Origin: Cryomorphaceae bacterium
Lineage (GTDB): Bacteria > Bacteroidota > Bacteroidia > Flavobacteriales_D > Crocinitomicaceae
NCBI GenBank assembly: GCA_027483605.1
Contig: JAIXUE010000003.1
Location: 31,566-95,565 of the forward strand
Direction of reading: 5' to 3'
DNA length: 64,000 nt
In this document: one piece after another, positions 54,250 to 58,508 of the stretch
Numbering within the stretch: position 1 is the first letter of the stretch
Layout: every line of letters begins with the position of its first letter
Translations under genes and position numbers: made by a program
Notes under the pieces: model-generated
The model's input: the letters and a program-made list of their open reading frames with translations, nothing else
What the model was told of the DNA's origin: nothing
The model's database searches: none

Positions 54250-55134
54250 TTATTCCACAACCCACTTCACACACTGCCCATCCTTGCGAATGAAATACGT
54301 ACCTGGATGTAAACTTGAGAAACGCATTTGGTTAACCCCGGCTTGTAAATCAAAGGATTGAATGGTTCGACCTATGGCATCAGTGAGTTGGATGTTTTCT
54401 AAGGGAAGCTCAGATTCAATATAAAGTTGGCCTGAACTTGGATTGGGCCAAATTTGAACTGAACGCATGAATGTATTTTCCTCCACCCCAACCAAATATT
54501 CACAATCGTTGGCATAGAATGGTTTGTAGGTGCTGAAATTGTCATCCGAATAACAGCGGAAAGGACCGCCTTCGTTGCCGTCAAAAGCCATGGTGCACAT
54601 GTCAAATGGCAGCATGTAAGAACCCGTGAAGCCAATTTTTTCGATGATGGTGTCTTGGAAACCTTGACTTGTAAGGTCGGGGTTGCAAAAGTCTACGACC
54701 AAGTATTTTAAGGTTTGGGCATTGATCACTTTTGTACCTGTGGCCAAGACCTTCAATTGACTGTTTTCTGTGCAACCACCAAACTCAGGCAGGGGCGCCA
54801 TGGGCCAATGCTCACCTACCACCGCATTGAAATTATAGAGCGTTTTCCATTGATTCTGCTCCAAGACATACACCACCCCATTGCTTTCATAAGTGTAGGT
54901 GGTATCGAAAATATAATTTACTGGCGTTACGCCAAAATGCAGCCCATTGAAAGTTTTCTGCAACTTCTGGCAAGTTTGCCCCGCAATAATGGTATCGCCC
55001 ACATTGGCAATCTCTACATACCCGCTTGAAAATCCGATATAGGTATAATGCCATTTTGCACCGGCTGGCGCCCAGTTTTGCGCAAAAGAGAGCGAACTGA
55101 AAACGAGTGCGAAAACGAGGAGTGATGATTTCAT
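54250..55134 (-). CDS. Secreted protein with T9SS C-terminal domain, related to 43277-44266
   Basis: Signal peptide; IWPNPSSGQLYIESELPLENIQLTDAIGR; GAKWHYTYIGFSSGYVEIANVGDTIIAGQ. Confidence 0.8.
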   Translation of the reverse strand: MKSSLLVFALVFSSLSFAQNWAPAGAKWHYTYIGFSSGYVEIANVGDTIIAGQTCQKLQKTFNGLHFGVTPVNYIFDTTYTYESNGVVYVLEQNQWKTLYNFNAVVGEHWPMAPLPEFGGCTENSQLKVLATGTKVINAQTLKYLVVDFCNPDLTSQGFQDTIIEKIGFTGSYMLPFDMCTMAFDGNEGGPFRCYSDDNFSTYKPFYANDCEYLVGVEENTFMRSVQIWPNPSSGQLYIESELPLENIQLTDAIGRTIQSFDLQAGVNQMRFSSLHPGTYFIRKDGQCVKWVVE

Positions 55135-55156
55135 GGTGTTGATTTACAGGATGAAA

Positions 55157-56329
55157 TTAGCGATTAAACTGAAAACCGATGCCCAGGTTGCAGCCAAAAT
55201 TGATGTATTTACGGTAGCTGAAAATCTCTGGTGGCGTTTTGACGCTATTGAAATTCAGATAGGGCGTTAGCGAGACAAACAGGTTCTGACGGTTGGCGCG
55301 CAGTTCTACCTGTAAGCTTTGTTGGAAGTTGAATTTCGGGCTCAAAAAGGCGTACATACCTACGCCATTTCTGTTCGGGTAGTAGCCGATTTGCTCTTTG
55401 ACACGTGTACCGATGGAGGCGCTATATTTCGGGATCACTGAAAAACCATTTCTTTGGAAGCGATAGCCAATGCTCAAGGGGATTTGAATGAATTGGTATT
55501 CATTTTTATTGACGTATTTGGCTTTAAAATAAGTGGTGTCTTGTAAACCTAAATAAGTTAGAGATGGAGTCAAGGAGTAGTCTATGTAATCATAGTTGGC
55601 TTGCTCGCCCAGACTCGTTAGCCAGATTCCGGCACCCCATTGCAGCTTACCTGAGTAATTGTAAAACTGGAGGCCAAAATTGGTGGTGGTCAGTACAGAT
55701 TCTGATTGTGTCAGCTTCAAATCATAGGCGCTCACCACATTGAAATCGCTGTATAAATAGCTTTTCGTAAAATTCACGCCAGAATAAACGCTGGCCTCCC
55801 ACTTGCGTTTTGGGGTTTGCTGAGGGCGCTGTGTTTTAAAGGTGTTTAACTGCGACGGAACAAGCAAACCAAGAACTAATGCTTTCATAGTTTGAAGTGA
55901 AGATCCAATACGCGGCGTGTCAATTGTCAATTCTTGACGGTTTAGAATAGCACTATCAAGAGGCGGTAAATTTGAAGCCTCTTGCATAAGTTCTATCTTA
56001 TTTTCTGATTGAGGTAAAGTATTTTTAATGATTGATAATGATGAATTTAGCTGTGCATTTTTACTTTGATGTATCAAAGATTCATACGGAAAAGAGGGTG
56101 TTTTAATCTGCAGTAAATTTGGCTCATTCAAGAATGAACTCATGCCGTAAATCAAGAAAGTGATGCTGAGCGCCATGCCTTTGAGCCAATCCAAAAAGAA
56201 CCCGCCTCTGCGCTTTTTTTCGTCTAGGCGCTTTTCTAGATCTTGCATGAAATCTAAATCAAGCGAAGGCATCTCACCAAGTGCTGCTTCCCGATATTGT
56301 GTTTCAAATGAAGTCAGTTGATTCTTCAT
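55157..56329 (-). CDS. Putative trans-envelope anti-sigma factor: cytoplasmic segment, one TM helix, linker, C-terminal outer-membrane beta-barrel (Dma-like)
   Basis: MKNQLTSFETQYREAALGEMPSLDLDFMQDLEKRLDEKKRRGGFFLDWLKGMALSITFLIYGMSSFL; C-terminal amphipathic strands ending NLGIGFQFNR; ATGA overlap with ECF sigma gene. Confidence 0.65.
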   Translation of the reverse strand: MKNQLTSFETQYREAALGEMPSLDLDFMQDLEKRLDEKKRRGGFFLDWLKGMALSITFLIYGMSSFLNEPNLLQIKTPSFPYESLIHQSKNAQLNSSLSIIKNTLPQSENKIELMQEASNLPPLDSAILNRQELTIDTPRIGSSLQTMKALVLGLLVPSQLNTFKTQRPQQTPKRKWEASVYSGVNFTKSYLYSDFNVVSAYDLKLTQSESVLTTTNFGLQFYNYSGKLQWGAGIWLTSLGEQANYDYIDYSLTPSLTYLGLQDTTYFKAKYVNKNEYQFIQIPLSIGYRFQRNGFSVIPKYSASIGTRVKEQIGYYPNRNGVGMYAFLSPKFNFQQSLQVELRANRQNLFVSLTPYLNFNSVKTPPEIFSYRKYINFGCNLGIGFQFNR

Positions 56330-56871
56330 GATGTTTTGTTTTGTAGTTGTTCGGCAATCAATTTGCGGGCTTTGAGAATGTGCCACTTCACTAAACCATA
56401 GCTGATCCCAAGCTGTTGCGCAATCTCTTCACGAGTGAGCTCTTCAATGACATAAAGATTGAAAATCACGCGGCTCGCTTCTGGCAAGGCATCGACAAAC
56501 TCAAAAAGTATTTTGGATGCATCTTCTTGCTGCAAAATCAAATCTGTTGGTACGCTGTCAGGCAGGTCTATGTTGCTATCCACTTGCTGAAAAAAGGAAT
56601 GGTACCTTTGTTTTTTTCGATACTGGTCTATAAATTCATTTCTGACAATAACGCTCAAAAAAGCTGGAAAAGACTTTTGCAAATCGAAAGTTTCTATGCG
56701 GTCTAGGGCCTTTAAAAATGCCGTGTTGGCTATGCTCATTTGGTCTTCTTTATGCAAGCTCAAACGAGCCAAACGCTGCAGCATGAACGGAAAACAATAG
56801 GCATACAATTCCATGATGAAGCGACGGTCTCGCTTTTGAATCAATGCTATTTTATCTTTTGTAAGTTCCAA
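56326..56871 (-). CDS. ECF-family RNA polymerase sigma factor
   Basis: AFLKALDRIETFDLQKSFPAFLSVIVRNEFIDQYRKKQRY; region 4 LPEASRVIFNLYVIEELTREEIAQQLGISYGLVKWHILKARKLI. Confidence 0.9.
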   Translation of the reverse strand: MELTKDKIALIQKRDRRFIMELYAYCFPFMLQRLARLSLHKEDQMSIANTAFLKALDRIETFDLQKSFPAFLSVIVRNEFIDQYRKKQRYHSFFQQVDSNIDLPDSVPTDLILQQEDASKILFEFVDALPEASRVIFNLYVIEELTREEIAQQLGISYGLVKWHILKARKLIAEQLQNKTS

Positions 56872-56893
56872 ATGTGTACGCTTGTGCTGAACG

Positions 56894-57721
56894 CTATTTT
56901 CTATTCAAATAATATTTCAAACCAAACATATGGCCAGACTGAAAAGAAAACCAAGATGAAGGCACGTTTTTCACCGCGAAGAAATCATAACAGATGCGGT
57001 TTTCATAAGTCAAAAACCAACGCTGATTTTCAGCAAGTTTGTCGTGCAGGCTATATTCTAGGCCAAAACTGGCGTAGATTCCTGCATTGAAGTTGTGTTT
57101 GGCAAAATTGCCGATAACATCTTGACTTAACAAATCGCTGGCACTATAACCATGAATACCATAAATTTCACCATATGTAACAGTTGAACTCAAGATTGTG
57201 CTGATCTGATTACCGAGACTAAAACCCACATAAAGACCTGCACCAAAATGAAACAATAATTGCTTGTTAATTTTGACTTGTTGGAGGTAAGCGTAATCAA
57301 TAGTTAGAACAGGCGAAGTATGGTTTACACGCATATCGTTGATGGCACCAAAAGGAAATGCCACTGAATCAGGATAAGTTATGTATTGCGTTAAAAAAGA
57401 ACTCAGCATTCTAGAATTCAGAGAGATGCCAAAGCGTTGCGCGGCGTTAGTCTTTGAATTAAACAATTGAACATTTGCGTTGTAAATAGGGCGCATGCGC
57501 AAATTGGTGAGCGCTTTAGGTGTGCCCCAAACCAAAACGCCCTCGTACTGATTTTGAAGAATAGCCTCATAGTTGGCATAGGAAGCAGCTGGTATTTTGG
57601 TACTCATGACACCACCCGCATTCAATTGATAACTATCTAGTTTCCAATTATGCACTTTCTGAGCATTTGCCACAGCGCTGAGCAGTAGACAAGTGGTAAA
57701 TGCTATTTTTATTTTCATCAT
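56894..57721 (-). CDS. Outer-membrane beta-barrel-like secreted protein, unknown function
   Basis: Signal peptide, alternating hydrophobic strands, 22 nt upstream of the sigma gene. Confidence 0.6.
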   Translation of the reverse strand: MMKIKIAFTTCLLLSAVANAQKVHNWKLDSYQLNAGGVMSTKIPAASYANYEAILQNQYEGVLVWGTPKALTNLRMRPIYNANVQLFNSKTNAAQRFGISLNSRMLSSFLTQYITYPDSVAFPFGAINDMRVNHTSPVLTIDYAYLQQVKINKQLLFHFGAGLYVGFSLGNQISTILSSTVTYGEIYGIHGYSASDLLSQDVIGNFAKHNFNAGIYASFGLEYSLHDKLAENQRWFLTYENRICYDFFAVKNVPSSWFSFQSGHMFGLKYYLNRK

Positions 57722-57839
57722 GATTTGAAGTTTACACCTATCTTACGCTACGTTTTGCAAATAAGGAAGTCGAATGCGCAAAAAAAAATAAATGATTGAC
57801 CTTGCTTCCTTTTTGACCGCTTTGTACGTAAAGTTAAGT

Positions 57840-58508
57840 ATGAAAACAATAATAAATATCTTAAGCACCCTTTTCGCTGTTTGTTTATTCACTCAAAAAG
57901 TTGATGCACAGCATCAAATTTCCATCCAGACAAATCCATTGAATTATTTTTTTGACCAGACACCTCAAAAGACCAATGATGATGGTTTTTCACCATTTTC
58001 CTTGGGGCTTCAATATCAATATCAAAAACCCTCACTAAAACTAGTTTCAGTTCAATTCAATATTTTTAGTGATGCAAATAAATGGAGCGCTGGATCCGTA
58101 GATTCCGTTTGTCTTAACTTACGGAGAATCAAAGAAACAAATGTCCTTTTTTCAAATAAAAAGCAGTTCGTCAATAAATTAAACTGGACCTATGGTCTAG
58201 GTCCAACGCTAAGAACGGAATTTTTTGCAATCGACACTGTAGCTACGCCCCAAGATGCTGAACTTATTGATTATTATCAAAGTAATCACCTACAATTAGG
58301 CGTTAAAGGGCAAATAGCTATTCATTACACACCATTGAATTGGCTCACAGTATACAGCCAATTGAACTTTTCTGGCTATTTGCTAAGCAGACAGATTGCC
58401 AGAAACTACAACGAGGATTTCATTAATGATTTCGGACTCAATCAACGCTTCAATTACCCAAGCCGCTTTCATGCTTCATTGACCTTTGGCGTGGGCATCA
58501 ACTTTTAA
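57840..58508 (+). CDS. Outer-membrane beta-barrel-like hypothetical protein
   Basis: MKTIINILSTLFAVCLFTQKVDAQ signal peptide; C-terminal SLTFGVGINF; ORF track opens at 57792. Confidence 0.6.
   Translation: MKTIINILSTLFAVCLFTQKVDAQHQISIQTNPLNYFFDQTPQKTNDDGFSPFSLGLQYQYQKPSLKLVSVQFNIFSDANKWSAGSVDSVCLNLRRIKETNVLFSNKKQFVNKLNWTYGLGPTLRTEFFAIDTVATPQDAELIDYYQSNHLQLGVKGQIAIHYTPLNWLTVYSQLNFSGYLLSRQIARNYNEDFINDFGLNQRFNYPSRFHASLTFGVGINF

Follow-up and report, generated by a model that had tools for sequence, protein, structure and literature searches.

A distant, predicted Dma-like sigma/anti-sigma pair with a probably local regulon in a Cryomorphaceae bacterium

The window analyzed here, a 64,000-nucleotide stretch of contig JAIXUE010000003.1 from a Cryomorphaceae bacterium, encodes an ECF sigma factor followed by a protein that is most plausibly a distant Dma-like anti-sigma factor. 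This reading, already put forward in a first-pass annotation made from the letters of the sequence, is supported by the architecture of the protein, by a fold search, and by profile linkage to Dma2 orthologues, while sigma binding and insertion into the outer membrane are predictions. Architecture and homology, together with synteny, co-occurrence, and a conserved pair of promoter-like elements, suggest a Dma-type sigma/anti-sigma pair whose regulon is very local, a reading to which we assign a probability of roughly 0.78. Dma definitions used here are those of PMC13088901. The Dma-like architecture itself is already known from gut Bacteroides, of which the window pair is best read as a distant further case; what is new here is the paired outward-facing elements of the divergent intergenic region.

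Gene content and conservation of the module

The identity of 56326-56871 as an ECF sigma factor was borne out by matches to Pfam (Sigma70_r4_2, 1.5e-11; Sigma70_r2, 7e-9) and NCBIfam (sigma70-ECF, 2.4e-23), and its start codon, TTG, aligns with a TTG in each of the five orthologues. Likewise, the ATGA overlap with the next open reading frame is present at 56326-56329 on the minus strand, both neighbouring genes lie 22 nt away as claimed, and the sigma and anti-sigma genes are kept as neighbours in the five orthologous loci compared. Strong orthologues of the anti-sigma factor were detected in the window genome and four others (60 relatives searched, with a sixth sigma carrier, G322, outside this search). 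Among named genomes, that of Flavobacteriales bacterium UBA7468 is the closest.

Sigma orthologues (E < 1e-60) and the operon outer-membrane protein (OMP) gene were detected in exactly the same six of 61 genomes of the genus, and the divergent gene was restricted to sigma carriers (five of the six). In the sixth carrier the match to the operon OMP is partial and the contig apparently ends there. A gene-by-gene comparison of five genomes showed the order divergent gene, operon OMP, sigma, anti-sigma to be retained throughout. Judged by synteny and co-occurrence, the module is the divergent putative OMP gene plus the OMP-sigma-anti-sigma operon (Table 1). The interval originally delimited for it (54250-57721) left out the divergent gene at 57840-58508 and the shared promoter region. 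The product of the divergent gene had no Pfam match, and its putative barrel nature derives from the sequence pattern. The operon OMP matched neither Pfam nor NCBIfam models; its structural model, built from two sequences (mean pLDDT 41.5), consists of a signal helix and eight strands and offers a hint only.

Table 1. Features of the module and its flank, in window coordinates
Feature	Position	Strand	Basis
T9SS cargo gene (Por_Secre_tail 1.1e-7), judged outside the module	54250..55134	-	independent distribution
Predicted Dma-like anti-sigma factor, 390 aa	55157..56329	-	AlphaFold2 model, fold search, profile comparison
Residues 188-390: predicted 8-stranded outer-membrane beta-barrel	55160..55768	-	AlphaFold2, fold search, profiles
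Residues 68-187: disordered periplasmic tether	55769..56128	-	low pLDDT, low orthologue identity
Residues 44-67: predicted inner-membrane helix, preceded by KKRRGG (N-in)	56129..56200	-	AlphaFold2, hydropathy
Residues 1-43: cytoplasmic N-terminus, two predicted helices, presumed sigma-binding	56201..56329	-	AlphaFold2, orthologue identity
ECF sigma factor, 181 aa, TTG start	56326..56871	-	Pfam Sigma70_r2 and Sigma70_r4_2, NCBIfam sigma70-ECF
First operon gene, 275 aa, signal peptide, putative outer-membrane beta-barrel protein	56894..57721	-	co-occurrence, low-confidence model
Predicted ECF promoter of the operon, ACTTCC-N17-CGTA	57744..57770	-	5/5 genomes, exact spacer
Predicted ECF promoter to the divergent gene, GCTTCC-N17-CGTA (ACTTCC in the other four genomes)	57804..57830	+	5/5 genomes
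Divergent gene, 222 aa, signal peptide, putative small outer-membrane protein, predicted sigma target	57840..58508	+	synteny, co-occurrence

A four-gene operon that included the T9SS cargo gene had also been suggested, and this part of the proposal failed: the cargo is replaced or separated in three of the five loci and is present in genomes that lack the sigma factor. Specifically, it adjoins the anti-sigma gene in the window and G016 only, an unrelated gene intervenes in G008, and a different cargo takes its place in G015 and G035. The gene was found in 17 of the 61 genus genomes, including sigma non-carriers with 89% identical copies, and this scatter, independent of the sigma factor, led us to reject it as a module member.

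Two further observations concern the surroundings of the module. The tract 54251-55437, which spans the cargo gene together with the final ~280 nt of the anti-sigma gene, is 82% identical in DNA to G016, a genome otherwise more distant from the window than G008; recombination or transfer of this tract is possible. In two of the five genomes (L004:2967-3527 and L006:516-1439), the module is adjoined by a gene that, judged by eye, resembles those of abortive-infection (Abi-type) proteins.

Promoter-like elements in the divergent intergenic region

The divergent intergenic region carries two outward-facing (A/G)CTTCC-N17-CGTA elements in each of the five genomes. All ten sites have a 17-nt spacer, and ACTTCC is found in all but one, which has GCTTCC. 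Mononucleotide shuffles of the same regions yielded CTTCC-N16-18-CGTA at a rate of 0.00048 per sequence and strand. Across the five genomes, CGTA is 24-29 nt before the operon start and ends 9 nt before the ATG of the divergent gene (57804-57842), whose transcript may therefore be almost leaderless. In Flavobacterium psychrophilum, a -10 CGT box is reported to suggest ECF promoters (PMC9723704). We infer that the window sigma factor reads the ACTTCC-N17-CGTA pair.

These elements could instead be sites of another regulator, an explanation that we consider unlikely. Their symmetry about the intergenic region makes them usable by another DNA-binding protein, but the identical 17-nt spacing on both strands, the CGT -10 box, and the position of one element upstream of the sigma factor's own operon all argue for promoters of the window sigma factor, as does, by eye, a CGT stretch just upstream of paralogous sigma genes that have different upstream boxes.

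Seven exact matches to the pattern were found in the whole genome versus eight for a reversed-pattern control, and the five copies outside the intergenic pair all lie inside open reading frames, so that only this pair is in promoter position. A wider regulon defined by the exact pattern was rejected on both grounds; the scan covered exact matches only, and weaker targets may remain. Judging from these sites, control by the window sigma factor is probably limited to its own operon and the divergent gene.

The paralogous sigma genes L002, L010-L014, L016, and L017 are preceded, by eye, by CACC/CTCC-like stretches and CGTTA-like boxes. Their upstream boxes are related to, but different from, ACTTCC-N17-CGTA.

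Layout and structural model of the predicted anti-sigma factor

The 390-aa protein, whose N-terminus is charged, matched no Pfam or NCBIfam model, anti-sigma domain models included, and a profile search of PDB sequences returned no credible match. An AlphaFold2 model of 55157-56329, the check proposed in the first-pass annotation, was computed from a 16-sequence alignment and predicts a C-terminal 8-stranded barrel, with eight main strands within residues 189-388. Helices are predicted at residues 2-16, 25-40, and 44-67, the last being the transmembrane segment. The model is of moderate confidence (mean pLDDT 59.6, pTM 0.45): pLDDT is 75-93 in several blocks of the barrel and 43-58 in others, and the tether is mostly of low confidence (pLDDT <50 at 68-149 and 151-187), with a short helix at 142-155. 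The N-terminus, helix, linker, and beta region described beforehand are thus all recovered in the model, but the linker spans ~120 aa and not ~100. In a PDB fold search with this model the listed matches were outer-membrane proteins, among which NspA, OprF-N, and OmpA had the highest target-normalised TM-scores (0.6-0.7).

Mean pairwise identity among the five orthologues was 65% in the barrel, 58% in residues 1-43, 42% in the transmembrane segment, and 20% in the tether, which is also variable in length. This conservation exceeds chance. By hydropathy, the transmembrane helix scores weakly in the window copy (best 19-residue mean 1.38), and some orthologues show it more clearly. The first-pass annotation overlooked another conserved hydrophobic stretch, at tether residues ~141-159. 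A second transmembrane pass at this point was considered unlikely: the stretch is short, and the barrel would end up cytoplasmic.

Kinship with Dma proteins

According to PMC13088901, the B. thetaiotaomicron operon that encodes Dma2 also contains DUF4943, and DUF4858 and nitronate-monooxygenase-like genes lie close by. Orthologues were sought via DUF4943 in the taxonomic family of a Prevotella genome, where 20 genomes had it, and the ten neighbourhoods opened contained a sigma factor, a protein with a transmembrane helix, a tether, and a C-terminal domain, DUF4943, and a nitronate-monooxygenase-like gene. By synteny, the proteins in these ten neighbourhoods are Dma2 orthologues.

The profile link between the window protein and Dma2 runs through intermediates. 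On its own, the five-member window profile matched paralogues of the genus at 5e-27 but did not convincingly reach Dma2 orthologues (E 0.004, a weak match confined to the N-terminus). The window-family profile matched barrels of other Bacteroidota at 1.7e-11, and a pooled profile with intermediate families reached both Dma2 orthologues (4.9e-16) and the Dma-like proteins of Prevotella and Capnocytophaga (9e-18). Against two control families of ECF partners, the C-terminal part alone gave E >= 0.08. At full length, one of these families did match the N-terminal segment (E 5e-4, probability 31%); the N-terminal module is therefore not specific to barrel proteins and may be a shared one.

The protein might also be an inner-membrane anti-sigma factor whose C-terminal beta domain senses in the periplasm without insertion into the outer membrane. 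Some barrel strands are of low confidence, the hydrophobic stretch at 141-159 could keep the C-terminus near a membrane, and many related ECF partners of Bacteroidota combine an N-terminal transmembrane helix with a non-barrel C-terminus. We nevertheless regard this as quite improbable: the fold matches listed are outer-membrane proteins, and homologous barrels from Prevotella, Muribaculaceae, and one Bacteroides-type Dma2 orthologue score over the Pfam OMP_b-brl/OMP_b-brl_2 cut-off. The Dma-like reading, with a predicted barrel in the outer membrane, is preferred.

Sigma phylogeny and the partners of related ECF sigma factors

In a tree of 99 sigma factors, the window sigma factor and its four genus orthologues fall within a clade of 17 (100/98), and Das2 orthologues form a separate clade of 13 (100/98). 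Barrel-type partners require five changes on this tree, at least three of them forced by well-supported branches, so the type of partner changed repeatedly. In the window genome, the sigma factors at C39:37688 and C23:34127 (L046 and L047) group with the window sigma clade; their partners have no match to barrel profiles, a pattern resembling an exchange of the sensor part.

Few ECF sigma factors of Bacteroidota have a classical anti-sigma neighbour: 6% of those in Bacteroidetes adjoin a Class I anti-sigma domain (ASDI) protein (PMC7406223). Our data bear on this open point, since, in contrast to this scarcity, a protein with an N-terminal hydrophobic helix is encoded beside the sigma gene in 113 of 117 ECF loci, in a sample biased to relatives of the window sigma factor. 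That the window protein is instead an OMP co-expressed with, or acting positively on, the sigma factor is very improbable. The lack of a match to any anti-sigma domain model would fit such a role, but the sigma-plus-transmembrane-protein arrangement is nearly universal in these loci, the modelled layout is that of Dma proteins, whose deletion frees sigma (PMC13088901), and a plain OMP would have a cleavable signal peptide.

The ECF partners L041 (L041:2119-2970, minus strand; G000 C42:17746-17898 region), L072, L098, L108, L117, and L130 have an N-terminal transmembrane helix and end in a T9SS type-B sorting-like domain, with no barrel. Pfam identifies CHU_C in L041, L072, and L098, and PKD also in the latter two. 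Such an ending is possibly another route for an anti-sigma factor to the outer membrane. As a tentative and somewhat doubtful generalization, ECF anti-sigma factors of Bacteroidota might broadly share a common cytoplasmic and transmembrane front, joined to an exchangeable outer-membrane docking module and accompanied by private promoters for local surface genes. With the same reservation, the docking module could be a barrel (the window) or CHU_C (C42 of the same genome and several Bacteroidales).

Proposed mechanism and significance

We propose that the first ~43 residues of the anti-sigma factor would hold the sigma factor in the cytoplasm, at the inner membrane. The protein would cross the inner membrane once, span the periplasm with a flexible tether of ~120 residues, and place its 8-stranded barrel in the outer membrane. 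On sensing a change there, through its occupancy, its assembly, or a pull on the tether, the barrel would bring about release of the sigma factor, perhaps via cleavage or a conformational change. Once free, it would act at the two outward ACTTCC-N17-CGTA promoters, raising expression of its own operon (putative OMP, sigma, and anti-sigma) and of the divergent putative OMP gene. This would amount to positive autoregulation capped by newly made anti-sigma factor.

To our knowledge, experimental work on Dma proteins comes from one gut species, and the signal that they sense is not known. The window adds a distant Dma-like member with an apparently minimal circuit of two promoters, two putative OMP genes, and a sigma/anti-sigma pair, and the question of input and output is therefore directly testable. 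The predicted regulon is unusually small, and the host is a little-studied relative of flavobacteria.

Comparison with known systems

Class I anti-sigma domain proteins (e.g., RseA; PMC7406223) are membrane proteins that sequester ECF sigma factors, as the window protein is predicted to do, whereas the latter matches no anti-sigma family. Within the window genome, a second barrel-type pair (C39:41693-42971, L002) belongs to the same larger sigma clade and has the same layout, with a barrel just under the OMP_b-brl cut-off (25.8 bits). It differs in being only 25% identical to the window pair, in its promoter-like boxes, and in that no adjoining OMP gene was seen within the retrieved stretch. 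The Dma-like pairs of Prevotella, Muribaculaceae, and Capnocytophaga (L079, L118, L128, L109, and L131) have the architecture of the window pair and a similar C-terminal barrel, but their sigma factors form one clade with Das2 orthologues, outside of which the window sigma factor lies.

Dma2/Das2 of B. thetaiotaomicron (BT_1558/BT_1559; PMC13088901) differs from the window pair in the clade of its sigma factor and in its operon, which has DUF4943 and DUF4858 genes downstream, whereas that of the window has an OMP gene upstream instead. Unlike Dma2, the window pair shares two outward promoter-like elements with a divergent putative OMP gene, and it has no known role in vesiculation. On the other hand, in both systems the sigma gene directly precedes that of its partner, and the partner combines an N-terminal sigma-binding part, one transmembrane helix, a long disordered tether, and a C-terminal barrel, all predicted in the window, with the two barrels joined by profile comparison.
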